Of a stretch of DNA of 50,531 nucleotides, positions 4,376 through 33,786 are shown in pieces. The notes beneath the pieces are model-generated. The model did not search any database and was not told the origin of the DNA. It was given only the letters and a program-made list of their open reading frames with translations. The stretch spans positions 1-50,531 of IMG/VR virus record IMGVR_UViG_3300034407_002377, one strand, 5' to 3'. This DNA is from a virus. Position 1 is the stretch's first letter. Each line of letters starts with the position of its first letter. Made by a program: the position numbers and the translations under genes.

Positions 4376-4404
4376 ATTATAACATAAATTCAGTCAATTG
4401 TAAA
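4376..4404 (-). promoter_or_regulatory. Early-type promoter for bS21-uvsX-gp41-thyX
   Basis: Minus strand TTTACA (4399-4404), 17-bp spacer, TATAAT (4376-4381), with TATG before and ATAC after. It lies within the last codons of the methyltransferase-like gene and starts a new transcript for bS21 and the recombination/replication genes. Confidence 0.83.
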
Positions 4405-5567
4405 CTGTTTTTTTCACATTTATAATTTCTTTTCTTATTATCTTGTACCATGAACTTAGTATCAACAAAATCTAACTTGCCTTCTAAGTATTTTTTAACC
4501 ATGGCTGCCGGATGCTCAGCTGTAGTTACTGGTACGTTTTGACACATATGATTAAGTGATCTTTTGGCATTGACCATCTGATAATCAGTTGGTAGTTTCA
4601 TCAACGACATAGCTTCTCGTACTGTTAAGAATCTATCTTCATCTGGATGCGCTATACTTGTTGGCATATGACCTACGAATGCTCCAATCTTATCCTTAGG
4701 AATTTCAACACCTTTACGCATAATGTTACCACCGGCTTTGAGCTTATGATACGCTCTATCGCATTTACGAGCAACATTATCAAATCCATGTTCTCGCATC
4801 CACTCAGCAACCTTGTTATAGGTTGTGTGTTCTTCAATATAATCTTGCACATTTATTGTCTTAGTAATCTTAGCAGCAAACTCTTGATGAGTAATCCCAC
4901 CCTCGATACTGTCTAAGATAAATTTGTAATATGGATCATCAGATGGCTTTTTATCATTACACAAAATTTGAGACATTGGATCATTTTTATCGTTTACTAC
5001 AGCTCTAATATCATCAGCAATCATTGTTGGTTGAATATTGATATATTCAAACAATGGCACTGTATCGTCTTTCCAGAAGAAGTAGAACGTACGATCTCTT
5101 ACTTGACTTAGACCATGTAATAATGATTTGGTTTTAAAGATACTAAATGTATAACCATTAGCTTCAGCTAGTTTACGTAATCTTTTTACTACAGGCTCTC
5201 CCATCTTAGAAGCAAGTCTTGGAGCGTTTTCTCCCCAAAAAACTTTTGGAGACATTTCACTTAGAACGTATTCGGCTGATTTTACCATCCAATCATTTGC
5301 TGGATTGTTACTTGAAGCAGATGGGCTGAGTGAACTTAGACCAGCACATGGACATATAGTATTAACTACATCTACGTTAGACGGGTGTTTGACTCCCTCT
5401 GAGAGGTTTAAGTAAGGTATCTCATTGTTATAGTAGTTTCTTAAATGTTCTTCATTAGCTTGAAAGCCGTCAAAAGTAAGAAAGTATTCTGGTCTTGTTT
5501 TAAAGATATTCTCCATTGCGATGGTTTCTCCACCAATCAATGGAACGATGCTTGCCCAGGTTGTCAT
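4377..5567 (-). CDS. C5-cytosine DNA methyltransferase homologue
   Basis: C5-MTases flip a cytosine, attack C6 with a cysteine and transfer a methyl group from AdoMet. Visible motifs (numbered from ATG 5567): motif IV ICPCAGLSSLS with the nucleophile at about Cys74; motif VI ENAP (113-116); motif VIII QVRDR (155-159); and a motif IX/X-like region LMKLPTDY...NVPVTTAEH. Motif I is divergent: VPLIGG stands where FAGxGG is usual, so AdoMet use is not assured. The ATG at 5567 is chosen over an upstream TTG at 5585; it begins 1 nt after the stop of the preceding gene. In a phage that also makes hydroxymethyl-dCMP, this protein may act on a modified base rather than as a plain methylase; that is inference. 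Confidence 0.85.
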   Translation of the reverse strand: MTTWASIVPLIGGETIAMENIFKTRPEYFLTFDGFQANEEHLRNYYNNEIPYLNLSEGVKHPSNVDVVNTICPCAGLSSLSPSASSNNPANDWMVKSAEYVLSEMSPKVFWGENAPRLASKMGEPVVKRLRKLAEANGYTFSIFKTKSLLHGLSQVRDRTFYFFWKDDTVPLFEYINIQPTMIADDIRAVVNDKNDPMSQILCNDKKPSDDPYYKFILDSIEGGITHQEFAAKITKTINVQDYIEEHTTYNKVAEWMREHGFDNVARKCDRAYHKLKAGGNIMRKGVEIPKDKIGAFVGHMPTSIAHPDEDRFLTVREAMSLMKLPTDYQMVNAKRSLNHMCQNVPVTTAEHPAAMVKKYLEGKLDFVDTKFMVQDNKKRNYKCEKNSLQLTEFML

Positions 5568-5568
5568 A

Positions 5569-6555
5569 TTAGAAAAATTCCTCAAGTGTATTATTATTTA
5601 TAGTTTCGATTCCATTCCAATATGGATAGAACTCTCTAGAAAGATGTATTGACTTTGGCTTTTCCATATACTTAAAGTCAAGTTCTCCTGCTTTATTTAG
5701 TAACTTATCAGTCCATCTTATGATTCCATACTGTTTTTCAATATAGTCATTAAACTCATTACGAATATCAGTACGTTGTTGCCATGAACCCCAGAATGGT
5801 TGACCTTTATAGTAACCAGACTGCGGAAGCTTTCGTGATTCATGTTCAATAGGTAATAACTCGTATATTTTAGCATCGTATTTACTAGCTTCAGTTATAT
5901 ATCTATCAGCCAATTCTTCTACACTTGCTTCTAATCTAATTAAGTGGTGACGAACATCGATATTACCAAAATAACAATGTAGTTCATCATACTCATCAGG
6001 AATAAACGATTTAAATCCATCGTTTAAAGCGCCATTAAGAGTTTTAAATGGAATACTATTAACTGTCCATCCTGGTCTATACATACATATCGCATGACTA
6101 TCACCAATAATAACATTACGAGTCTGATTAGGAACATCAATTCTGATTGCTGTATTAAACATTCTTTCGAGATTAACAAGATCAACGTTATACCATTCTG
6201 GCTGAACATCGCGTTTAGCGGCAGCCAATTTGTTTTTAATCATTTCGTGATATGGTGGAAAGTCCATACCTATAGAATAGACTTGGCCTTTGAATTTAGA
6301 AAAGTTAACAGTGTTAGCAACATATGGAAAACCATAAACGCCACCAAACATATTAAGACCACCGCTATAGTCACTACCGTGGTAAACCCATAGATTATCG
6401 TAATCATTATGCTCAGTAATTTCTCCGCCATAGTTAACGGTACAGTTTCCATATTTTTCCTTAATCATATCGCCATATATAACGCCTTGAGCTCCTCTAT
6501 GAGAAGCATGCCTTTTTGCGATAGGTATAAATGGACAGTTAATTATATTTTTCAT
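5569..6555 (-). CDS. SGNH/GDSL-hydrolase-like protein, 328 aa
   Basis: I do not recognise a named family, but an SGNH-like signature is visible: a VIIGDSHA block (residues 148-155) with the expected nucleophilic Ser153, an FGNIDVRHHL block (196-205) resembling the Gly/Asn block, and a late KSIHLS block (301-306) that could supply the histidine. SGNH proteins are esterases, acyltransferases or related transferases. The N-terminal 140 residues (CPFIPIAKRHASHRGAQGV, GGEITEHNDYDNLWVYHGSDYSGG) form an additional domain rich in aromatic and acidic residues. The gene abuts its upstream partner (TAA then ATG with no gap). The context suggests processing of a modified base or its sugar-like donor. Confidence 0.6.
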   Translation of the reverse strand: MKNIINCPFIPIAKRHASHRGAQGVIYGDMIKEKYGNCTVNYGGEITEHNDYDNLWVYHGSDYSGGLNMFGGVYGFPYVANTVNFSKFKGQVYSIGMDFPPYHEMIKNKLAAAKRDVQPEWYNVDLVNLERMFNTAIRIDVPNQTRNVIIGDSHAICMYRPGWTVNSIPFKTLNGALNDGFKSFIPDEYDELHCYFGNIDVRHHLIRLEASVEELADRYITEASKYDAKIYELLPIEHESRKLPQSGYYKGQPFWGSWQQRTDIRNEFNDYIEKQYGIIRWTDKLLNKAGELDFKYMEKPKSIHLSREFYPYWNGIETINNNTLEEFF

Positions 6556-7620
6556 TTAAAAGAATGCACTTAAATTATTTTGTGGTGCTTTAGCTCTTGC
6601 TACTTGGCGTCTTCCACATGCCTTTTCATCATCTCTTATTTGTAGATATACACCATACTGACAACATAGAACCTCAGTACCATAATACTTTAATCCATTC
6701 TGTTGCTCATTAAAAAGATAAGAGCCATTGTCTAATTCTATATTGTAGCCCGATTCATGAAAGATAACATCCTTAGTTAAACCAATTTCAGCAGCGTTTT
6801 CTCTTATAAAGTAAATTGCTTCAGCTAGATATTTATTAGGAACATCTGGCCATAGTAATTTTATCGTATAAACTGCTCCTGGTCCTGGGGCTACGAATCT
6901 TTGGTCATGATGGTATTTCATTTGAGGCAAAACCGACGTAGAAGTAGCGCAATGGAAACCATAGTATTCGCCAACTCCTGGTAAAGTTTTCAACAAAGTA
7001 AACACTTCAAAAAGATCTTTAGCCGCTAGCATACCTTCAATGATTTTGCTGTCTCTAAAAGAAGCAACCCATTCGCTTACATCAACTGGATGAAACTTAC
7101 GATCAGGTTCATTGTACTTTTTACGACAATAGTTTCTACCAGATGTTTGAATAGACGTATGTAACTCAGTCGTTCCCCAGATAGGTTGTTTATTTCTTAT
7201 AGCTTTATCAACGTTATTACGTAGAGACTTAATATAATCAGCATCGCCATCAGCAATACGATCAAAATCAACAAAGGTTCCTTCCTTGCCTGATACTACC
7301 CAGTGAACGCCACGAGCTCCATAGAAGTGAGATATGATAGTGTTACCCACAATATTAGTATCGCTCATTCTAGATGTTGCAATTTCAGTACCAATAAATC
7401 TCATACGATCATCTAATGTAATTGTTGGATGAAAGTACTCTACGTTTTCCCCTAAGCCATGATCAATTACACCATGACGATTTAAATTTTCGTATTGATC
7501 ATTAGTAAAACCTTGTTTGATAGCAGCACGATCGTTAATCTTTTTTAAGAAATGATTAAAGTCGAGCATAAGGTCTTTATCAAATGACCACCAATCATAA
7601 TTGTAAGAACTAGTAGCCAA
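6556..7620 (-). CDS. HhH protein resembling DNA-hypermodification pyrophosphorylases
   Basis: The 354-aa protein contains a helix-hairpin-helix-like LKTLPGVGEYYGFH (210-223), followed by a conserved-looking FVAPGPGAVYTIK (242-254). This arrangement recalls the DNA-glycosylase-related alpha-glutamyl/putrescinyl-thymine pyrophosphorylase families described in phages with hypermodified thymine, which replace an activated group on a 5-hydroxymethyl base with another moiety. The assignment rests on motif memory, not on a search. The first 200 residues include GARGVHWVVSGKEGTFVDFDR and a cysteine/histidine-containing stretch. It overlaps the HAD gene by 11 nt and abuts the SGNH-like gene, so all are translated together. 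The alternative is a DNA-glycosylase-fold repair enzyme. Confidence 0.55.
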   Translation of the reverse strand: MATSSYNYDWWSFDKDLMLDFNHFLKKINDRAAIKQGFTNDQYENLNRHGVIDHGLGENVEYFHPTITLDDRMRFIGTEIATSRMSDTNIVGNTIISHFYGARGVHWVVSGKEGTFVDFDRIADGDADYIKSLRNNVDKAIRNKQPIWGTTELHTSIQTSGRNYCRKKYNEPDRKFHPVDVSEWVASFRDSKIIEGMLAAKDLFEVFTLLKTLPGVGEYYGFHCATSTSVLPQMKYHHDQRFVAPGPGAVYTIKLLWPDVPNKYLAEAIYFIRENAAEIGLTKDVIFHESGYNIELDNGSYLFNEQQNGLKYYGTEVLCCQYGVYLQIRDDEKACGRRQVARAKAPQNNLSAFF

Positions 7621-7987
7621 TTAAGCCCTCTCGCACTAAATGAATTACGTTTAAGTCTGGATGAACCTTTTTGATTTCTTCAATTTGAATAGGGTCATCC
7701 TCAAAGTGTAGTCCAATCTTAAATGATTCTTTAAGCTTTGTGATACATTTAGCTTTATGAATACCTGAAGCTTTTCGACTATATGCGTCATCGCTTCGTT
7801 TTAGTGGATTAAACATAACGTGGTTATGAATTTGCCTAGATTTTAGCATACTAATTGTTTCTAGTTCTTGTTGGTAAGAACGACCAGTGATGATGACATC
7901 ATCCCGACCAGGACGCACACCAGTTACGTCCTCGCCAAAATAGATTACACCATCAATATCAAAGGTATTAATTAACTGCTTAGGCAT
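7610..7987 (-). CDS. Small HAD-superfamily phosphatase
   Basis: HAD hydrolases dephosphorylate small molecules or proteins through an aspartyl intermediate. Motif I is DIDGV (Asp10, Asp12), motif II IITGRS (32-37), motif III probably Lys80 or Lys84, and motif IV FEDDP (95-99). At 125 aa there is no cap domain, as in minimal HAD phosphatases. The ATG at 7987 is chosen because AGGTG lies 9 nt upstream; GTG 7999 and ATG 7993 are possible. The start overlaps the end of the inositol-phosphate synthase by 8 nt. That coupling makes inositol-1-phosphate an attractive substrate, although nucleotide or DNA 3'-phosphates cannot be excluded. Confidence 0.8.
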   Translation of the reverse strand: MPKQLINTFDIDGVIYFGEDVTGVRPGRDDVIITGRSYQQELETISMLKSRQIHNHVMFNPLKRSDDAYSRKASGIHKAKCITKLKESFKIGLHFEDDPIQIEEIKKVHPDLNVIHLVREGLIGY

Positions 7988-9260
7988 AGTCATTTTCACC
8001 TGATTGGAATGTATAAGTTAGGTTTTCGACTTTAGGATTATTTTCTTTAAGTTGTGGACGAGTAATATCAGTTAGAACTCTACGAGCTAATGCGTCACAT
8101 TCAAACTTAGAATCAGCAGTTTTAAGTTGCTGTGGTGGAGTCTTTTGTGACCATGCTGATGGACCACGTAAGTAACCAACAATACCCATTTCAGAAGCAA
8201 CCTTAACGAATCGAATAGCATCGTAAACGATACCAGCACTATTTGGAGAATCTTGAACAGATAATCTAGCAGTCAATTCATAACGAGCTCCAGCCCAACC
8301 CCAAAACACCATGTCAATATTAGCAATCTTGTTATCTGATCCGATGTACTCATCGCCTGGTTTTTGGAAAACTGTAAGTGATGGACCAGCATACATTGTA
8401 AGACCAGCAATATCCTTACCACGTACTGCGGCTTGGCCATTTAGTACATTTTCTTTAGAGATATGTTTGTTCTTCAAACGATCTTTAGTTGCCATGTTTA
8501 GGAAGTCTGTATTAGCAGTACGACCTGTACGACGCATATCACCTTGAGTTGTGCCACAAGCTTTATTTTCTTGAATATGCTGAGTTACCAATAAACCAGA
8601 ATCCATAATAGATCCTTGAAGGACTTCAGACAAACGAGACGCACCATAATCAGAACGCATATCAGAACCAACAATTGTTACACCATGTTCGATAGCAAGC
8701 TGTTCTAATTCCATAGCATCTTTAGTAGAAATATAAGTTGGCATACAGTTAACAACATGAACACCGGATCTAATAGCATTTTCAATGTGCCATCTGGCAG
8801 CTTCTTCTGAACCTACTGGCATATAGTTAAGTAGGACATCAACATTACGAGCTTTAAGAATATCACGGTATTCAGAAGCAGTAATTGGAGTTGTTTCTGT
8901 ATCTTCCAAAAACGTAATAGCTTTATCTAGATCATGCATGTGAGGCGCGATACCATCCAACGTAGGCGAACGATATACAATCGACTCATTAGCAATACAG
9001 CTCATGTCATGACCTGGAGGAAATACTTCCATGTTACAATTTGGTTCTGCGTAAATTGCTTTATTTAGCCGTTGACCAACTTTACGAGAATCAACGTCAA
9101 AGCCAACCACGAAGTTAAAATTCGGAGCTGAATAACCACCAATGTCTTGAAACATTAGGCCAATTGTATCTTCTGGATTTTCGTTATAGTATTGAACACC
9201 TTGAACCAGTGCAGATGAACAGTTGCCAACACCGGCAATTGCGATATTAATTTTAGACAT
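7980..9260 (-). CDS. ino1: myo-Inositol-1-phosphate synthase (MIPS)
   Basis: MIPS converts glucose-6-phosphate to inositol-1-phosphate using NAD. The Rossmann start IAIAGVGNCSSALVQGVQYY (6-25) matches the short actinobacterial/archaeal-type enzyme. Further conserved blocks are SPTLDGI (98-104), YMPVGSEEA (146-154), NTDFLNM (250-256), DSPNSAG...DAIR (337-350) and SAWSQKTPPQQL (368-379) with the expected lysine. Its 426 aa exceed the actinobacterial enzyme by about 60 residues, partly through insertions near 220-250 and a C-terminal tail. It is the first gene after its own promoter (9352-9380), with an AAAGGG ribosome binding site. A phage inositol-phosphate synthase beside DNA-modification-like genes suggests that inositol or a derivative is a virion or DNA component. 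Confidence 0.93.
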   Translation of the reverse strand: MSKINIAIAGVGNCSSALVQGVQYYNENPEDTIGLMFQDIGGYSAPNFNFVVGFDVDSRKVGQRLNKAIYAEPNCNMEVFPPGHDMSCIANESIVYRSPTLDGIAPHMHDLDKAITFLEDTETTPITASEYRDILKARNVDVLLNYMPVGSEEAARWHIENAIRSGVHVVNCMPTYISTKDAMELEQLAIEHGVTIVGSDMRSDYGASRLSEVLQGSIMDSGLLVTQHIQENKACGTTQGDMRRTGRTANTDFLNMATKDRLKNKHISKENVLNGQAAVRGKDIAGLTMYAGPSLTVFQKPGDEYIGSDNKIANIDMVFWGWAGARYELTARLSVQDSPNSAGIVYDAIRFVKVASEMGIVGYLRGPSAWSQKTPPQQLKTADSKFECDALARRVLTDITRPQLKENNPKVENLTYTFQSGENDYA

Positions 9261-9351: not shown

Positions 9352-9380
9352 ATTATATCACACTTTTGATCAAATGTAAA
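9352..9380 (-). promoter_or_regulatory. Early-type promoter for the inositol/modification operon
   Basis: TTTACA (9375-9380), 17-bp spacer, TATAAT (9352-9357) on the minus strand. The spacer contains TTGATCAAAAGT, almost the same as the spacer of the rightward promoter at 31354-31382. It overlaps the 3' end of the 84-aa membrane-protein gene. Confidence 0.85.
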
Positions 9381-14997: not shown

Positions 14998-17508
14998 TTA
15001 AAAGAATTCATCAAGCGTTGCTATGTCTTTTGAGTTCCAACCAACAGCTTGAAGTATTGGATCAATAACACCTAAGAATGTTTTATCAAACTGAGTGTCA
15101 TAATCAATGTAGCGATGTAGACCAAACTCTTCAGGCAAATAATCAAGAAAGGATACTACATTTTCCTTTATGTGATTAGGTGTTCGAAGGTAGATAAACT
15201 TAATCTTTTCACCATTTTGGATCTTGTTATATTGCTTAGTAAGCGATTTGTCTACAAGTAATTTGTTATACATGATACTACCACGAGCATGAATTGGTGT
15301 ACCCTTTTTGTATATTGTTTGATTATCCATATAGTTAGTAAGGTTAGTTATACCTCGTGGAAAGGCAATCTCATCAGGTGGCAGAGTTTTAAAGTACGTT
15401 CTAAAGGTTTCAATATCTTGTTGAACCTTTAATTCAGAACCACTGATTATTGTCCTAAACATTTGCTTAAGAGCTGTACGACATGGAGCTGGTGTAGAAG
15501 ACTTAATAGCTTCAATACCCATAATTTTAAGCTTTGGTTCAGCATATCGAACACCTTCATTATCAAGAACGTTTAGGATATACCTTTTCTTTGCTGTCCA
15601 GATACCACGATCAGCAATTGCTTCACGTTTCATGACCATTCTGTTTTCGATACCACCCATGACTTTAAACAAATCAGCATAGCTTTCTTCAAGAACAGTT
15701 TCAAGCTTTTCCTTACAAACAGTATCGATAAATTCCAATGGATTCTTAGGACTAACAGCTTTAACAAGATCATCGAGTACTACGTAAACAGAATCTGTAT
15801 CGATAGCAATAACATAGTCTTTTTTGGTTTTAAGAATCTTATTGAGATATTCGTTGATAGCCTTTTCAGCCCAGCGAATAGTAAGCTGACCAGATAGAGT
15901 AATACCTTCAGCAATACGTTGATCAAAGAATCTAAAGTATTTGTTACCAAGTGCGCCATAAAGACTGTTTAGAAGAATCTTAATAGACATTTGTTGATTT
16001 TCAGCGATGTTAATATCGCGTTGAACTCGATACAATTCTTGTTTGTTGTTTTTGTCAACCTTTTCAAGTTCCTTTTGACCATTGATCATTGCACGTTTGA
16101 TTACAACACGTTCACTATACATTTCATCAATAATTTTTGGTAGGATACCTTGTGCATCAGTAGTAAAATACTGACCAGATGCTGAAGCACATTCATTAGC
16201 TTCAAGCTTAGGTTTAACATCGCCACTTAGAAGACTATCAACAGTAACATTAGCAACTTTACCATTGATAATAGTTTCAGGAGACATGTTATTTTGCATA
16301 ATGATTGATGGATACAGTGAGTTCAAATCAAAAGAAACAACCCATTCGTGCATTCCAACATGTGGATCTTTTACAAAGCCACCTGGATATGGCGATTTAA
16401 ACTTTTCTTCGCCAAATGGAACGATGACGTTATTTGCATGTAGATTACGAAAGATAATAGAATCCCATATGGCAGTTGTACCCATGACATCGCCATAGTT
16501 AACACCACCACGATAAGCCATAGTAAGAGCTAATGTAATAAGACCCATCTTATCTTCGAAACGATCTACCAAGTCTACGTCTTTAATATTGTAGTCAATA
16601 AACTTTTGATGATCGTGTATGTAAAGAGTATGAAGGTTACCATGTTCTTCATAAGAAAGCTTACGTTCTCCAAGTACTACGTGAGCAATATTGTCAAGCT
16701 TGTATGATTCTTGTGGACCATATGAGTAACCAAATTTACGAAATAGATCAAGGTAATCCATTTGAGCGATACCTTGAATTTCATAAGCGCACTGTTTACG
16801 CTGCATTGTATTGACATCACGACGATCGATCAAACCCCAGGGAGATAATCTACGAACGAACTCTTCACCATGGATTTTAATGATACGATTAACAAGGTAT
16901 GGAATATCAAAGAATCGTGAATTCCAACCAGTAATAACATCTGGGCATTGCGATGGTAAAGACCAATGAGCAATGAATTTTAATAGGAGTTCTGATTCGG
17001 TCATACACTTTTCGTATACTACACGATTTTCTGTCATGTATGTTTTTTCTACGTCATAGTCTTTAAGACCCCAGACGTAAAAGGTCTTATCGATATTGTT
17101 TTTCATACAGATTGCTGTTACTTCATGAGCAGCATGTTCTGGTTCAGGAAAGCCAGCATCTGATTGTACTTCAATATCAATTGTTGTTACGTTAATAAGG
17201 TTACGATCAAACTTAATATTGCCAGGGAATGCTTCATTAATATATGCTGGAATATGTTTGTTGTTACCGTAAATCAGTCGGCCTGCAGTATGTTGGTTTG
17301 ACGCAAGCCAATCTTTAGCTTCACGCATATCTTCAAATTTGATAGGCGCAACTTTAGTTCCATCTAATGCTTTAAATGGTGTAGGATTAGGTGTATTGAC
17401 ATAGAATGTCGGTTTGTACTTAATTTTTGTTTGAATTTTTTTGCCGTTACTGTAACCTCTATAGAGAAGATTATTGCCATAACGTGAGATAGATGTGTAA
17501 AATTTCAT
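14998..17508 (-). CDS. 43: DNA polymerase, family B, T4 gp43-like
   Basis: Replicative polymerase with 3'-5' proofreading. Exonuclease motifs: Exo I TTIDIEVQSD (Asp, Glu), Exo II DVITGWNSRFFDIPYL, Exo III YNIKDVDLVDRF. Polymerase motifs: motif A SFDLNSLYPSII, motif B KILLNSLYGALGN, motif C AIDTDSVYV. The C-terminus (VGWNSKDIATLDEFF) ends in the short LDEFF-type tail used to bind the sliding clamp gp45. The 836 aa compare with 898 in T4; no intein or split is visible. It is transcribed from its own promoter (17537-17565), just after a terminator. Confidence 0.98.
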   Translation of the reverse strand: MKFYTSISRYGNNLLYRGYSNGKKIQTKIKYKPTFYVNTPNPTPFKALDGTKVAPIKFEDMREAKDWLASNQHTAGRLIYGNNKHIPAYINEAFPGNIKFDRNLINVTTIDIEVQSDAGFPEPEHAAHEVTAICMKNNIDKTFYVWGLKDYDVEKTYMTENRVVYEKCMTESELLLKFIAHWSLPSQCPDVITGWNSRFFDIPYLVNRIIKIHGEEFVRRLSPWGLIDRRDVNTMQRKQCAYEIQGIAQMDYLDLFRKFGYSYGPQESYKLDNIAHVVLGERKLSYEEHGNLHTLYIHDHQKFIDYNIKDVDLVDRFEDKMGLITLALTMAYRGGVNYGDVMGTTAIWDSIIFRNLHANNVIVPFGEEKFKSPYPGGFVKDPHVGMHEWVVSFDLNSLYPSIIMQNNMSPETIINGKVANVTVDSLLSGDVKPKLEANECASASGQYFTTDAQGILPKIIDEMYSERVVIKRAMINGQKELEKVDKNNKQELYRVQRDINIAENQQMSIKILLNSLYGALGNKYFRFFDQRIAEGITLSGQLTIRWAEKAINEYLNKILKTKKDYVIAIDTDSVYVVLDDLVKAVSPKNPLEFIDTVCKEKLETVLEESYADLFKVMGGIENRMVMKREAIADRGIWTAKKRYILNVLDNEGVRYAEPKLKIMGIEAIKSSTPAPCRTALKQMFRTIISGSELKVQQDIETFRTYFKTLPPDEIAFPRGITNLTNYMDNQTIYKKGTPIHARGSIMYNKLLVDKSLTKQYNKIQNGEKIKFIYLRTPNHIKENVVSFLDYLPEEFGLHRYIDYDTQFDKTFLGVIDPILQAVGWNSKDIATLDEFF

Positions 17509-25402: not shown

Positions 25403-27516
25403 TATGCTACGATCCTTCCAAAGGTTGTCATCAATACTTTGTTCTGCTTCTTACTCTTTGAGTACTTTTTAAACGCATTTGCCATTTGATTTTTAGTTTG
25501 ATCAGAAGTTACGCCAAAATCATCATTTTCTGTTGATAGTTTGTCGCCACCCTTGATTAAGTAGAACTCATCGTATCCTAAGGCTGATTTGCGAACAACA
25601 CATTTGTTTTTTCTGTATTCTTTATTAGCTTCGCTTCTGTGGCTATCAGCCCAACCATTAATTTGACCTATTTTGTGATTAAACATTCTATTATCATCGG
25701 CCATAAAGAAACCAATAGTACTAGTGTTGTATCGCTTGTTTATGTTTTCGAGCAAAGCTTGAGTAACGTTATCAGTATTTTCAGCTTTAACCATTCTACC
25801 ATCGATTCTCATGTTAATGCCTTTAAACATTCCTCGAGTTTCAACTCTATTCTCACCAAGTTCGCCATCTCTATATGCTTGTAATCGATTAGCATCGCCA
25901 TCAGATAATACAACCAAATTCATTTTTTCAACTCCATTTTTAGCTTTGAACTCTTTGATTAAAGAGTGAGTCATTACTAATGCCTGATTGAGCGGAGTAG
26001 AACCAAAGTCTTCGCATGGAGCCGCAACTTCGCGAGATATGTAAGACGATCCCTTTGCTCTTATATATAAAGCTCTGATTGATTCATCGAAATCAGCCTT
26101 TTTAAGCTTTGACGATGTTAACAATGGCATTGCCAAATCATCAAGATCAATATCACCATCAAATAATAAACCTCTGTTACGAAGATCGTAGTAGTTTAAT
26201 TTTTGATTTGTTGTAGTAAATGCATAAACGTCAAACGGAATATTGACTTGCTTACAAAAGAGAACTAAGTGTATCAACTGCTCTAAAACTTTAGGTAATG
26301 AGTCATACATAGAACCAGAGTAATCAATCAACATAATCATACCATGACTTTTAGCATCGTGCAGTCTAGTTGTTTGTTTAAAGATGTCCTCATTAGTTTT
26401 GTATGAATATAGCTTGTTGACATCGATAACGCCAGTTTTTGCTGTAGTAGCTTTTGCCCACTGAGTAGCGGCCTTTCTCATTTCAAACTCTTTTACAGCA
26501 ATACCAACGCTTCTTTTAACCTCTTTCATATACTTAGGAAACTGTAGTTCAAGATGATTAACTTGTACGTTTACGTGATAAGGGATAGTGGTTTTTCGTA
26601 GTTGTCTTTGAGCCTTGAGTTCAGCATAAGGTATAACAATATCCTTTTTAATTTCTTTCGAAATATCTTCAACTGCAAGAATTTGTCTACCATCTTCATC
26701 AATGTCTAAAAAAGAACTCTCATTATTTCTAAAAGCTTCATCAGTAACAGAAACGTCTCCTTCACTACCTTTTGCCGGAGTTTGGCCTTCGTCTGAATCT
26801 TCTTCAACTTCTTCTTCGCCTTCTTCGCTTTCTTCTTCTGAAGAACCTGGATCATCAGTCTCTTCTTCATTTTCTTCATAACCACCATCATAACCTTCTG
26901 ATTCATTTTCACCAGAATCATTATTAGGTTCTTTATTTTGATCGTCGTTTTTATCTTCTTCGTCTTCTTCTAATGATTTGTCATAAGCTACGATATCTTT
27001 AACAAGATCAAGAACTTCTTGAAAATCTTCAGTTGTATTTGCTCTATCCATAAAGACTTGTTCTTCATCATTAAACTCAAGCTCTATGTGAGCTCCAACT
27101 TTAGCTTGAAGATTAATCTTATCAATAATTCTTAGTGATGACATATCAATATCATTAGTACCAAAGAAGTTATCATCAAATAATTTAGCATATGCTCTAG
27201 AAAATGGACCAACTAAACCAGGATAACGTGATTTGACTTTTCGTTCAATCCTAGCATCTTCTACGACATTGATGTATGACCTAGGACATCCAACTAATTT
27301 CTCAGGACTATCATGCCAGCCTTCGTATGGAGTTTCTAATGCGTGACCAACTTCATGACCTACAAATAGATCATATACGTCTTTACCCATATCTTTCCAC
27401 AAAGGAAGACCAAGCACTCGATTCTTGATATCAAACCATGGAGTCTTATAATTGCCATGTCTGATAGAGATATTCTCTTTCGCTAAGAGTTTTGGTAAGC
27501 TAGAATTATGATACAT
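25402..27516 (-). CDS. vWA protein with HExxH metallopeptidase-like domain (CobT-like)
   Basis: The N-terminal domain has a zinc-peptidase motif GHEVGHAL (53-60; HEVGH) and, downstream, VVEDARIER (84-92), a possible third ligand. Residues 182-250 form a long Glu/Asp-rich linker. The C-terminal von Willebrand A domain has the MIDAS start MIMLIDYSGSMYD (393-405; DxSGS) and later VVLSDGDAN. This layout is like CobT/vWA partners of MoxR ATPases, and the cognate ATPase follows immediately. ATG 27516 is chosen because the upstream open frame overlaps the promoter. The 704-aa protein may be a chelatase-type or proteolytic remodelling factor; its target is unknown. Confidence 0.88.
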   Translation of the reverse strand: MYHNSSLPKLLAKENISIRHGNYKTPWFDIKNRVLGLPLWKDMGKDVYDLFVGHEVGHALETPYEGWHDSPEKLVGCPRSYINVVEDARIERKVKSRYPGLVGPFSRAYAKLFDDNFFGTNDIDMSSLRIIDKINLQAKVGAHIELEFNDEEQVFMDRANTTEDFQEVLDLVKDIVAYDKSLEEDEEDKNDDQNKEPNNDSGENESEGYDGGYEENEEETDDPGSSEEESEEGEEEVEEDSDEGQTPAKGSEGDVSVTDEAFRNNESSFLDIDEDGRQILAVEDISKEIKKDIVIPYAELKAQRQLRKTTIPYHVNVQVNHLELQFPKYMKEVKRSVGIAVKEFEMRKAATQWAKATTAKTGVIDVNKLYSYKTNEDIFKQTTRLHDAKSHGMIMLIDYSGSMYDSLPKVLEQLIHLVLFCKQVNIPFDVYAFTTTNQKLNYYDLRNRGLLFDGDIDLDDLAMPLLTSSKLKKADFDESIRALYIRAKGSSYISREVAAPCEDFGSTPLNQALVMTHSLIKEFKAKNGVEKMNLVVLSDGDANRLQAYRDGELGENRVETRGMFKGINMRIDGRMVKAENTDNVTQALLENINKRYNTSTIGFFMADDNRMFNHKIGQINGWADSHRSEANKEYRKNKCVVRKSALGYDEFYLIKGGDKLSTENDDFGVTSDQTKNQMANAFKKYSKSKKQNKVLMTTFGRIVA

Positions 27517-30681: not shown

Positions 30682-31257
30682 TTACACCATAAACAATTCT
30701 AGTTTTTCTTTATCTTTTTCGATCTTTGCGAACTCTTTAATCTTAGTGTCTTTAGTTCTAATCTGATCGATTCTTTGCCTTAAGGTATCTACATATTCTA
30801 ATGTTTGAGCTGCACCATTATCATCCATACCCATAGCAGCAAAATCTTCAATACCCATCTTTTCGATGTATCTAAATTTGATTTCTTGTTGCTTCTTTTC
30901 TTTAGTAATACGCCTAATAAAAGCAAAGAAACAAATTTGAGTAAAGTAAGAGAATGCGTTTGGATTACCAGTTCTAGTAGCAGTTTCAATCTTATAGTTA
31001 TTAATAGCTCTTAGACAGTTTTCAACACCATCCATTACCATCTCTTCTCTATAAGTGTACCGAACAAAGTTCGGTCTGTGAGACAGTCCTTCAGATATTT
31101 TCATGAAACATGTAGCAACGTAATCTGGAACCTTAGGGATTTGAGTGTCATTAGATTTAGCTTCTATTACGGTCTTAACGTACTCAACTACTGCTAGTGA
31201 GAATTCCTTGTTATTGACATAGTGTGGCTTAGCTTTTGGTTTAATTTTAGTGGTCAT
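30682..31257 (-). CDS. 55: Late-transcription sigma factor gp55
   Basis: gp55 directs host RNA polymerase to TATAAATA late promoters and works with gp45 and gp33. Segments characteristic of the family are MKISEGLSHRPNFVRYTYREEMVMDGVENCLRAINNY and AFSYFTQICFFAFIRRITKEKKQQ, the sigma region 2-like part that contacts the -10 box. Length 191 aa (T4 185). It is transcribed from promoter 31280-31308. The many TATAAATA sites in this window are its likely targets. Confidence 0.95.
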   Translation of the reverse strand: MTTKIKPKAKPHYVNNKEFSLAVVEYVKTVIEAKSNDTQIPKVPDYVATCFMKISEGLSHRPNFVRYTYREEMVMDGVENCLRAINNYKIETATRTGNPNAFSYFTQICFFAFIRRITKEKKQQEIKFRYIEKMGIEDFAAMGMDDNGAAQTLEYVDTLRQRIDQIRTKDTKIKEFAKIEKDKEKLELFMV

Positions 31258-31279: not shown

Positions 31280-31308
31280 ATTATATCATAGTTTGGGTCA
31301 AATGTAAA
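31280..31308 (-). promoter_or_regulatory. Early-type promoter for gp55-gp47-gp46
   Basis: TTTACA (31303-31308), 17-bp spacer, TATAAT (31280-31285), extended TATG. It is back-to-back with a rightward promoter at 31354-31382, with a very A/T-rich 45-bp stretch between the two -35 boxes. Confidence 0.87.
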
Positions 31309-31353
31309 CAATTATTTTATTTTATTTATTTTCAATATTAGGTGAATTAAACG

Positions 31354-31382
31354 TTTACAAATGATCAAAAGTATGATATAAT
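31354..31382 (+). promoter_or_regulatory. Rightward early-type promoter, antisense to neighbouring genes
   Basis: TTTACA (31354-31359), 17-bp spacer, TATAAT (31377-31382), with full TATGATATAATATAG context. It is as good as the leftward promoters but faces the 3' ends of the LSm-like gene and uvsW. No plus-strand gene is convincing downstream (only a 39-codon frame from 31421). Confidence 0.8.
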
Positions 31383-31418
31383 ATAGATGTTACCGGGGAG
31401 GTTAGGGGTATACAACAA

Positions 31419-31799
31419 TTAATGTATGGTTGGTTTAATGGCTTCTTCATCTCTAATGTCATCTTCAATCATCGATTCACCCTCCAATTCGTATTCTTCT
31501 ATATCACGATTAATCTCATCTTTAATCATATCTTGACATGAATACTTAATGTAAGACTCTTTAGTCTCATCTACAACTTCAGTATGATTAATCACAAACC
31601 TTTTCATGATCTTAAACATCTTCTTGTCAGAGAAAGGAAACCAATCACTAAAAGTCCATGAATTATCAGATGCTAATCTTACGACCGCAGGTCGTTCAAC
31701 AATAAATGCGTGTTCGCCTGAACTTTGAACATAACAAATAAGCTCTTCGCCGCTTGTTAGTTTAAAGTGTCTTATATCAATATCTTTAATAGATTCCAT
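31419..31799 (-). CDS. LSm-like small protein, 126 aa (paralogue)
   Basis: The N-terminus (IRHFKLTSGEELICYVQSSGEHAFIVERPAVVRL) is clearly related to the 95-aa protein at 14648-14935 (LLRLTSGEEIIVTITSSS...VTFEKPVALY), the LSm-type pattern. The second half adds FSDWFPFSDKKMFKIMKRFVINHTEVV and a strongly acidic tail (DEINRDIEEYELEGESMIEDDIRDEEA). The function is unknown; an RNA-binding or clamp-interacting role is possible. Its ATG abuts the uvsW stop, and a late promoter places the predicted start site on the A of this ATG. Confidence 0.7.
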   Translation of the reverse strand: MESIKDIDIRHFKLTSGEELICYVQSSGEHAFIVERPAVVRLASDNSWTFSDWFPFSDKKMFKIMKRFVINHTEVVDETKESYIKYSCQDMIKDEINRDIEEYELEGESMIEDDIRDEEAIKPTIH

Positions 31800-33311
31800 T
31801 TATATATTTATATCGTATATTTTATAGTCGAATTTCTCTTTACTATAAATTTTGATCCTTTCAGCTGCATGTAATAATGTATAGTTCTTTTTGGTCTTCC
31901 AATGCAAATCGTCAGCAATATCAAATACCTTAGTAGTATCTATACCATCTGCAGACTTCCTTAATCCTCGCCCGATCGACTGTAATACTCTAATTTGAGA
32001 TTTGCTTGGTGCAGCAAAGATAACGTTATGTAGACGCTTAATATTGATACCAGTAGAAAATGTACCCATACTAGCAACAATAATTGCGTTATCCTGAGTT
32101 TCAGTGATTGCCCTAATCTCTTCCCGAGCATCGACATCTGTTTCGCCAGATACATAAAATAGCCTCCTAGTATTTCTTGGTAATGCATCAAACTTACTCT
32201 TCAACATATCGTGTAATGGTTTACCATGCTTATCAACATATTGAAACAGTATTAAAGTATTACCTTCTTGGTCCATAGCTAAATTAGTTATGAAATTATT
32301 CCTAGGATTATACTTTACGATAAAGTCAAGCTCATCTTGGTACTTCATTTTTGATACAAGCTTACAGTATTCATCGCTGTATTTTAGCAATAAGATTTTG
32401 ATATCTAACTGAGCAAGCGAACCCTCTTCCATTAACTTTTTAGTTGTGGTTACCTTATAGACCGGTCCAAACAAACCTTCTAAAACCAACTGATGTGTTT
32501 GTGATCCATCTAATGTACCGGTTGTACCAAGTCTATATTTAGCATTAACACATTTTTCTAATATAGAAGTTAATGATTTAGCTTTAAAGTTATGAGCTTC
32601 ATCTCCAACAATCATACCATAATTTTGAAACCAGTTAGATGTTTCTTTATATATTGACTGCCATGTTGTAATAACAACCTGTTGCTTTATGTTATATTTT
32701 TCTTTACCAGAATAGATTTTATGACAATTTTCTTCAACACTCCAATCATCTGTCCGAGAATAATCAGCAAAATCTGAATACATTTGTTCAACTAACGAGG
32801 TCGTAGGGACGATCAGCAGTACGTTTCCTTGATTCATTTCTAAATGGTATCTAATGGCGAGATATATGATCAGACTCTTTCCGGAAGCCGTAGGGCTTAA
32901 TAGTAACGCCTTTCTATGCTGTAGCGCCCTCGACAGTGCATCGAGCTGGTACGACCGGGGTGTTATACCTACTCCATTCACAGAGAGTGACAGACTGTTC
33001 AGGAAGGTTTCTATGTCATGCATCTCTTTAGTATCGGGCCTTCCATACATGGAATTGTCCTCTACGATGAGCTCATAGCCCCTAACTTGGGCAAATTCTT
33101 TGATATATTCAAATAAACCACCATATATAGTCTTCTTACGGGCATCATATAGACGTATTTTGCCATCCCACATACGATTTTTGTATGCTGGCATGAACTT
33201 ATACCCTTCTACAAAGAAGCAGAAGTGCTCAGACAATTCCATCTCTATCCCCGGTTCAGTCACAATATGGAGGAAGACTTCATTTTTCTTTTTGACTATT
33301 ATTTTTTCCAT
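31800..33311 (-). CDS. uvsW: UvsW DNA/RNA helicase
   Basis: UvsW is an SF2 helicase that unwinds R-loops and branched DNA and switches T4 from origin- to recombination-dependent replication. The N-terminal DNA-binding domain includes MPAYKNRMWDGKIRLYDARK; then PRSYQLDALSRAL (Q-motif-like), Walker A SPTASGKS, the DEAH box GDEAHNFKA, GTTGTLDG (motif III-like) and motif VI QSIGRGLRKS. Length 503 aa. It overlaps uvsY by one base (TAATG). The rightward promoter at 31354 would make RNA antisense to this gene. Confidence 0.96.
   Translation of the reverse strand: MEKIIVKKKNEVFLHIVTEPGIEMELSEHFCFFVEGYKFMPAYKNRMWDGKIRLYDARKKTIYGGLFEYIKEFAQVRGYELIVEDNSMYGRPDTKEMHDIETFLNSLSLSVNGVGITPRSYQLDALSRALQHRKALLLSPTASGKSLIIYLAIRYHLEMNQGNVLLIVPTTSLVEQMYSDFADYSRTDDWSVEENCHKIYSGKEKYNIKQQVVITTWQSIYKETSNWFQNYGMIVGDEAHNFKAKSLTSILEKCVNAKYRLGTTGTLDGSQTHQLVLEGLFGPVYKVTTTKKLMEEGSLAQLDIKILLLKYSDEYCKLVSKMKYQDELDFIVKYNPRNNFITNLAMDQEGNTLILFQYVDKHGKPLHDMLKSKFDALPRNTRRLFYVSGETDVDAREEIRAITETQDNAIIVASMGTFSTGINIKRLHNVIFAAPSKSQIRVLQSIGRGLRKSADGIDTTKVFDIADDLHWKTKKNYTLLHAAERIKIYSKEKFDYKIYDINI
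31805..31812 (-). promoter_or_regulatory. Late promoter abutting the LSm-like gene
   Basis: TATAAATA with 5 nt to the ATG at 31799; a start 6 nt downstream, as in T4 late promoters, would make a leaderless mRNA. No Shine-Dalgarno precedes this ATG. Confidence 0.45.
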
Positions 33312-33757
33312 TACATTCCGCTAGTGAATTTATTCCATTCAATGATATTCTTGATATTCTGATGACGCCACTTGACATTTTCCATTATCTCTTTTAACGT
33401 GTCTATCAGCTCTTGGGTATAATGCATTTTAGCTTGATGTTCTTGAATCAATGGATCAGCATCATACCACTTGTCCATATCACCTTTTAATACAGTAAGT
33501 CCATTCAATGGATCATATGACCAACCTTTAGCGTCTAATTCGACTTGGGTAAGTTTACCATTGTAATGCATAAATTTGTCTCTCAGTAATACTTTAAATT
33601 CAAGGTCTAATTTCTTGAATCTTAATTTATTAACTGAGTATAGTTCTAAGTACTTCGAATGAAGCTTTGCAGAATCTCGAGCAGACTTATCTAATTCGAG
33701 TTGATCAATTACTGAATCTTTCTTCCACATTTCAAGTATTGTTTCTAGGCTATTCAT
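33311..33757 (-). CDS. uvsY: UvsY recombination mediator
   Basis: UvsY loads UvsX on single-stranded DNA covered by gp32. The recognisable central part is LHSKYLELYSVNKLRFKKLDLEFKVLLRDKFMHYNGK, followed by VLKGDMDKWYDADPLIQEHQAKMHYTQELIDTLKEIM and the terminal HQNIKNIIEWNKFTSGM. Length 148 aa (T4 137). A long hairpin and a late promoter (33779-33786) precede it; coupling to uvsW by TAATG matches T4 order. Confidence 0.92.
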   Translation of the reverse strand: MNSLETILEMWKKDSVIDQLELDKSARDSAKLHSKYLELYSVNKLRFKKLDLEFKVLLRDKFMHYNGKLTQVELDAKGWSYDPLNGLTVLKGDMDKWYDADPLIQEHQAKMHYTQELIDTLKEIMENVKWRHQNIKNIIEWNKFTSGM

Positions 33758-33778: not shown

Positions 33779-33786
33779 TATTTATA
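33779..33786 (-). promoter_or_regulatory. T4-type late promoter for uvsY-uvsW
   Basis: TATAAATA directly downstream of the hairpin at 33788-33827 and 22 nt upstream of the uvsY ATG. Confidence 0.6.

Follow-up and report, generated by a model that had tools for sequence, protein, structure and literature searches.

The whole stretch of DNA analysed here, a 50,531-bp IMG/VR virus record from a marine T4-like phage (IMGVR_UViG_3300034407_002377, referred to here as the window) that is not a complete genome, contains a predicted early-type promoter at 31354-31382 on the plus strand that points against the surrounding genes and into the 3' end of a gene for an Sm-like (LSm-fold) protein. As read from the sequence, this antisense promoter is conserved among relatives, is linked to the Sm-like gene, has no conserved reading frame behind it and lies at the border between early and late genes. 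That it is transcribed, and the timing, length and repressive effect of its RNA, are what we infer. The interpretation that we favor, to which we give about an even chance of being correct, is that the promoter serves the Sm-like gene as a conserved cis-antisense element, whose early RNA delays expression of this late gene and perhaps of uvsW.

The promoter (TTTACAAATGATCAAAAGTATGATATAAT) consists of TTTACA, a 17-bp spacer with an extended TG, and TATAAT, and it is kept in relatives. We found 11 exact copies of TTTACA-N16-18-TATAAT on the two strands of the 50.5 kb compared to 0.14 expected from dinucleotide shuffles, and ten of these are leftward, on the minus strand, leaving the copy at 31354-31382 as the sole one on the plus strand. 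With hexamers and spacing well above chance, it is a predicted sigma70-type early promoter. The gp55 promoter (31280-31308, minus strand) belongs to the same motif family (TTTACA-N17-TATAAT), and the two divergent -35 boxes flank an A/T-rich spacer of 45 bp (31309-31353, no strand); in stability, the 45-bp stretch at 31305-31349 falls in the lowest 0.07% of the whole window. The 17-bp spacer of the antisense promoter is identical at 14 of 17 bases to that of the inositol-operon promoter (9352-9380), behind which lies a gene for myo-inositol-1-phosphate synthase (7980-9260). These data agree with the first-pass annotation of this DNA, which had described an exact rightward TTTACA-N17-TATAAT placed back-to-back with the gp55 promoter over 45 bp, a spacer resembling that of the inositol-operon promoter, and a window in which all genes run leftward: all identified genes are on the minus strand, and plus-strand open reading frames of at least 90 amino acids occur only across longer minus-strand ones. 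The same annotation had called the promoter the lone rightward one, which holds for the TTTACA/TATAAT family, while a generic sigma70 scan adds one unremarkable, intragenic rightward match of 11/12 (27425-27452, TTGATA-N16-TATAAT) without the TG.

A blastn search of the region for near matches among phage records returned none, and the comparison with relatives was therefore based on protein-anchored loci, gathered around uvsW and gp55 from IMG/VR together with the corresponding regions of isolates. The best promoter pointing away from gp55 scored at least 11/12 in 70% of 382 distinct gp55-upstream regions, compared to 2% of shuffled copies and 4% of windows taken in the same orientation farther upstream. 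All 93 loci of the window's own group have TATAAT as their -10 box and 83% have the extended TG, while the cyanophage group, 100% of which reaches 10/12, carries TTGACA with TAnAAT-like boxes. These boxes indicate that the predicted promoter is retained while its sequence has shifted with the promoter type of each lineage. Among 16 named phages, 15 carry the antisense promoter at 10/12 or better, including P-SSM2, P-SSM4, P-HM2, Syn1, Syn33, and HTVC008M, with Melnitz being the sole exception at that threshold. A 123-kb relative (G001) has eight copies of the motif, and the copy at this locus is again the only antisense one. Our data thus indicate that the antisense promoter, as predicted here, is a conserved element of Kyanoviridae, that is, of T4-like cyanophages, pelagiphages, and their kin. 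The spacing of the divergent -35 boxes differs between groups, being about 35 bp in window-type phages and 4-6 bp in cyanophage loci (L205-L284; isolates L163-L165 and L508-L516), as in the back-to-back boxes of Syn1, TGTCAAG-G-CTTGACA. At 4-6 bp, two polymerases could hardly bind simultaneously, judging by the distance.

Which gene the promoter belongs to was examined by applying one rule, an antisense sigma70 promoter within 65 nt past the stop codon, to four neighboring genes. Stop codons of the Sm-like gene have such a promoter at 11/12 or better in 81.9% of 376 loci and at 10/12 or better in 92.8%, with a median of 34 nt from the end of the -10 box to the stop codon. At the 11/12 threshold the control stops gave 0.0% for uvsW (0/363), 1.5% for uvsY (n=260), and 0.5% for gp55 (n=369). 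Where uvsW is apart from the Sm-like gene (e.g., L022, L023, and L024), the promoter stays with the Sm-like gene; together with the absence at uvsW stops, this argues that uvsW is not the anchor and that the primary target is the Sm-like gene. The first-pass annotation had proposed an RNA antisense to both the LSm-like gene and uvsW, and our data support the first part, with a promoter fixed at the 3' end of the Sm-like gene across the family, and not uvsW as the primary target.

Could the promoter instead be passive, kept only as the divergent partner of the gp55 promoter because the two share upstream elements or supercoiling? The back-to-back arrangement, and the closeness of the -35 boxes in cyanophages, would fit such a partnership. 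The promoter pair was not found near gp55 in 85 loci; in 54 of these, however, a promoter of at least 11/12 lies beside the stop of a sense open reading frame, and inserted genes of about 220-1180 nt part gp55 from a promoter that has been kept at the 3' end of the Sm-like gene. Since the promoter is kept at the Sm-like gene despite these insertions, it is not a by-product of the gp55 promoter, and we rejected the passive partner on this insertion test, regarding it as very improbable. The conserved unit is the Sm-like stop codon plus the predicted antisense promoter, with the gp55 pairing being incidental. Between gp55 and the divergent promoter pair lies an insertion hot spot in its own right, where many lineages carry 220-1180 nt of additional genes (e.g., L365, L369, L376, and L384).

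The Sm-like gene (31419-31799, minus strand; phrog_471/527), whose stop codon in the window is 36 nt past the antisense -10 box, is a homologue of cyanophage T4-GC 139, which is labelled 'methylamine utilization' there. An AlphaFold model built on a 74-sequence alignment reached a pLDDT of 85 and matched PDB 3by7, a marine metagenome Sm/LSm-like protein, with a TM score of 0.9 and a root-mean-square deviation of 1.2 over approximately 79 residues at 24% identity. The model confirms the predicted Sm fold for the product of the gene next to the antisense promoter, and with it the earlier 'LSm-like' label. The known structure has the same fold as the product of the promoter-linked gene; it informs on the fold alone and not on the antisense promoter, and RNA binding by the phage protein is putative. 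Within the family the acidic tail is variable while the C-terminal residue is nearly always His; the terminal His is present in 94/94 window-type loci, mostly as T-I/V-H, whereas cyanophages have Ser instead.

The predicted RNA would start near 31389, as placed from the -10 box, 30 nt before the Sm-like stop codon. Its first 25 nt (GTTACCGGGGAGGTTAGGGGTATAC, 31389-31413, plus strand) are G-rich, with two GGGG runs. Across 112 relatives, the distance of this G-rich block to the antisense -10 box is 25.0 +/- 0.97 nt and its distance to the Sm-like stop codon is 10.0 +/- 2.66 nt. Since the first distance has the smaller standard deviation, the block belongs to the antisense transcript, and we rejected it as a part of the 3' end of the sense mRNA. 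Of the 324 conserved promoters, 300 run into a sense open reading frame that ends within 45 nt, and the RNA predicted in these loci would be complementary to the overlapping gene; antisense transcription is a prediction that the comparison with relatives supports well. The block is followed in every group by a C-rich, G-poor zone (C/G 1.7-3.6 at +64 to +94), which in the window lies at 31449-31628 of the plus strand with 43 C and 13 G in 180 nt. This stretch is plausible as a Rho-loading region, though the Sm-like protein, with its acidic C-terminal tail, dictates at least part, and probably much, of this composition. No intrinsic terminator-like site was listed on the plus strand from the promoter to 35 kb. 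The antisense reading frame ranges from 1 to 60 codons across loci and is not conserved, and the antisense transcript is accordingly predicted to hold no conserved protein. Rfam gave no match near threshold, only two at chance level, and the fold of the RNA was no better than that of shuffles; small stems occur in some relatives.

The surroundings of the promoter suggest when it may act. The ten sense early-type promoters all have positions below 31.31 kb. The 19 kb on the other side hold none of them; there, late motifs (TATAAATA) stand ahead of the Sm-like gene (31805), uvsY (33779), and gp19 (34292) and between gp19 and gp23 (34652). The motif at 31805-31812 (minus strand), just upstream of the Sm-like gene, is late-promoter-like, and a counterpart at this place is found in 72/365 relatives compared to 1.2% of random windows. 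The antisense promoter thus stands at a border with early promoters to its left and late genes to its right, where it would send early-type polymerase into the first of the late genes, and from this position its likeliest role is to make an early cis-antisense RNA by which the late Sm-like gene is held back. Neither motA nor asiA is present in cyanomyoviruses, whose early genes are thought to be read by unmodified host polymerase (PMC2984593). We hypothesize that unmodified host sigma70 polymerase would read the antisense promoter early, along with the other TTTACA/TATAAT promoters, and that the RNA would begin about 30 nt past the Sm-like stop codon and run back through the Sm-like gene. Early in infection, convergent transcription and RNA pairing would silence the late Sm-like gene and perhaps uvsW (31800-33311, minus strand; Pfam UvsW_N), to which the RNA would be antisense only if it exceeds approximately 410 nt. 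The gp55 protein, made from the adjacent promoter, would then redirect polymerase to late promoters, and the antisense promoter would shut off. The earlier proposal of antisense regulation of uvsW is supported in part: conservation favors antisense transcription, and the target is revised, since the promoter is tied to the Sm-like gene.

Several observations weigh against a delay of the Sm-like gene by antisense pairing. Only 20% of relatives have the late motif ahead of the Sm-like gene. The first 25 nt, though strongly conserved, are not part of the Sm-like gene, and simple antisense pairing would not require them. A 5'-end hairpin is seen in many relatives, but a covariation test with flank-fixed arms was not significant, and amino-acid divergence confounds the low values at synonymous sites toward the Sm-like 3' end; with no demonstrable structure and a confounded synonymous test, pairing beyond the first 25 nt has no support in the sequence. 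Furthermore, in one locus (L125) the same promoter drives a real gene. That locus (L125:1425-2354, minus strand) has a rightward gene inserted behind the antisense promoter, amidinotransferase-like by eye and without a Pfam match, and is the one clear case of this promoter driving a coding gene; the frame has no ATG, GTG, or TTG near the expected start. In Syn1, the promoter and leader (L164, near record position 122,960) have an 89%-identical second copy at 16,505-16,557, in sense orientation ahead of a cluster of small genes. Given this second copy, early promoters in general may have the conserved first bases as their leader. No second leader copy was found in the window, G001, G002, C48C1, or HTVC008M.

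Four other explanations of the conserved promoter have to be weighed against an early antisense RNA. If the purine-rich leader served as a ribosome-binding site, with an ATG or GTG opposite the terminal His codon of the Sm-like gene, the promoter would belong to a small translated gene, and indeed an ATG or GTG is at the expected point in 119/122 loci, the purines resemble a ribosome site, and a real gene follows the promoter in L125. Yet the frames of 1-60 codons have no conserved length, the start codon is absent in cyanophages because their Sm-like protein ends in Ser and not His, and the CAT:CAC ratio of the terminal His in window-type loci (76:18) differs little from that of the uvsW background (2531:1218). 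We rejected the small antisense open reading frame for its lack of conservation, and consider a small gene extremely improbable. A short trans-acting small RNA bound by the adjacent Sm-like protein, as a phage-encoded Hfq-like pair, would explain why the neighbor has an Sm fold, why the promoter is locked to its gene, and why conservation is in the first ~25 nt and not in the part that overlaps the gene, and the C-rich stretch after the leader suggests early Rho termination. The conserved leader is wholly different between lineages, however, and the Rfam and folding results, together with the putative status of RNA binding by the phage protein, speak against such a pair, which we hold to be unlikely. 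In its broadest form, a core non-coding RNA of Kyanoviridae arising from the Sm-like 3' end would act with an Sm-like ring as an Hfq-like riboregulator that times the early-to-late switch, a possibility that we regard as quite unlikely. The promoter might also act as a border insulator if polymerases starting from it ran into those reading through from the strong late operons (gp23 and others), the RNA itself being irrelevant; late transcription would be kept out of gp55-47-46, or early polymerases out of the late genes. The last late gene and the first early promoter lie immediately on either side of the site, and the overlap with the gene is without detectable constraint, both of which suit an insulator. 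It is improbable in our view, given that the promoter stays at the Sm-like gene when genes are inserted before gp55 and that an insulator leaves the conserved first 25 nt unexplained.

The remaining explanation, an R-loop origin of replication, had also been raised in the first-pass annotation. In the manner of T4 oriF, the G-rich start would stay hybridized next to the A/T-rich spacer and prime the leading strand until UvsW, made late, takes it away. When RNA:DNA stability is set against DNA:DNA stability by nearest-neighbor values of published tables, the first 25 nt rank in the top 0.06% of all windows and are the best region on the plus strand, while the other ten promoters are ordinary in this respect (12-63%); each of the 93 window-type loci has its start in the top 1% of that locus. 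The G-cluster initiation zone of a QmRLFS-type model is present as GGGGAGGTTAGGGG at 31395-31408, with two GGGG runs, one of three such clusters in the window and the only one on the plus strand, and the upstream spacer is very unstable. The next 150 nt, however, contain 10% G, short of the G-rich extension zone of that model, and pelagiphages and cyanophages keep the promoter while for the most part missing the G-rich start, their hybrid-prone start being weak or absent (near background). T4 oriF and oriG require a promoter and an A/T-rich element downstream (PMC3016281). They resemble this locus in that a promoter transcript heads toward uvsW and in that UvsW is the enzyme that ends such origins, and the oriF primer RNA (the uvsY transcript) likewise heads to the uvsW 3' end, a positional parallel only. 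They differ in that the promoter here is early-type, the start is G-rich, and the T4-type downstream unwinding element is missing: the A/T fraction of +1 to +50 is 0.60, the lowest of the 11 promoters, and the unstable stretch is upstream. In four of five genomes the minimum of third-position GC skew lies 3-13 kb from gp55, and this origin test was suggestive in three genomes and not in G002, but the change in skew coincides with the late/early gene border and is thus confounded. In C48C1, HTVC008M, and G001, third-codon-position GC skew shifts near the border of late structural and replication genes, and replication direction and gene class are not separable. Moreover, the promoter follows the Sm-like gene, which an origin has no reason to do. 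The earlier proposal thus has partial support, from a promoter with a hybrid-prone start in the window's group, and is weakened by the faintness of that start in cyanophages and pelagiphages and by the missing downstream element; we consider an origin here quite unlikely.

An early cis-antisense RNA would have a precedent in CfrI, a ~225-nt antisense RNA of the psbA region of cyanophage S-PM2 (PMC2984593, PMC5931967). CfrI and the RNA predicted here are alike as cis-antisense RNAs of T4-like marine phages that overlap the 3' side of a gene. CfrI, which connects psbA with a homing endonuclease gene, has experimental confirmation in S-PM2 only, the others being bioinformatic predictions, whereas the element described here, predicted from sequence, sits at a core gene and occurs across most of the family. 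With the early sigma70-type promoters of Kyanoviridae the antisense promoter shares its -35/-10 family, which is that of the ten sense promoters of the window, while it points against genes and keeps its place at the stop codon of the Sm-like gene. A passage of PMC10976474 cites Stazic et al. 2016 for antisense transcription in Kyanoviridae. We found no description of an antisense element at the Sm-like gene in the open literature that we searched, and a prior mention elsewhere is possible. Antisense RNAs in T4-like cyanophages are thus known in kind, and what is unusual is that retention of this element spans the family and that it is locked to one core gene with an Sm fold. Kyanoviridae-type phages are very common in the ocean, and how they time expression without MotA and AsiA of T4 is little understood; an element in more than 90% of sampled loci, fixed to a core Sm-fold gene, is a strong lead to a missing regulator. 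Phages in culture carry it (Syn1, P-HM2, P-SSM2, and HTVC008M), and an early, datable RNA would be a yardstick for uvsW and the Sm-like gene being held back until gp55 is made.

The genes around the promoter are gp47, gp55, the Sm-like gene, uvsW, uvsY, gp19, and gp23, and Pfam and PHROG matches bear out the earlier names gp55, UvsW, UvsY, gp19, gp23, and gp47. The late sigma factor gp55 is at 30682-31257 (minus strand; phrog_234, E=1.4e-51), and uvsY (33311-33757, minus strand; Pfam UvsY) has its late-promoter-like motif at 33779. Elsewhere in the window, a C5-cytosine methyltransferase (4377-5585) and a 5-hmdU-DNA-kinase-like protein (6556-7620) are encoded near each other, a pair that hints at modified bases in the phage DNA.
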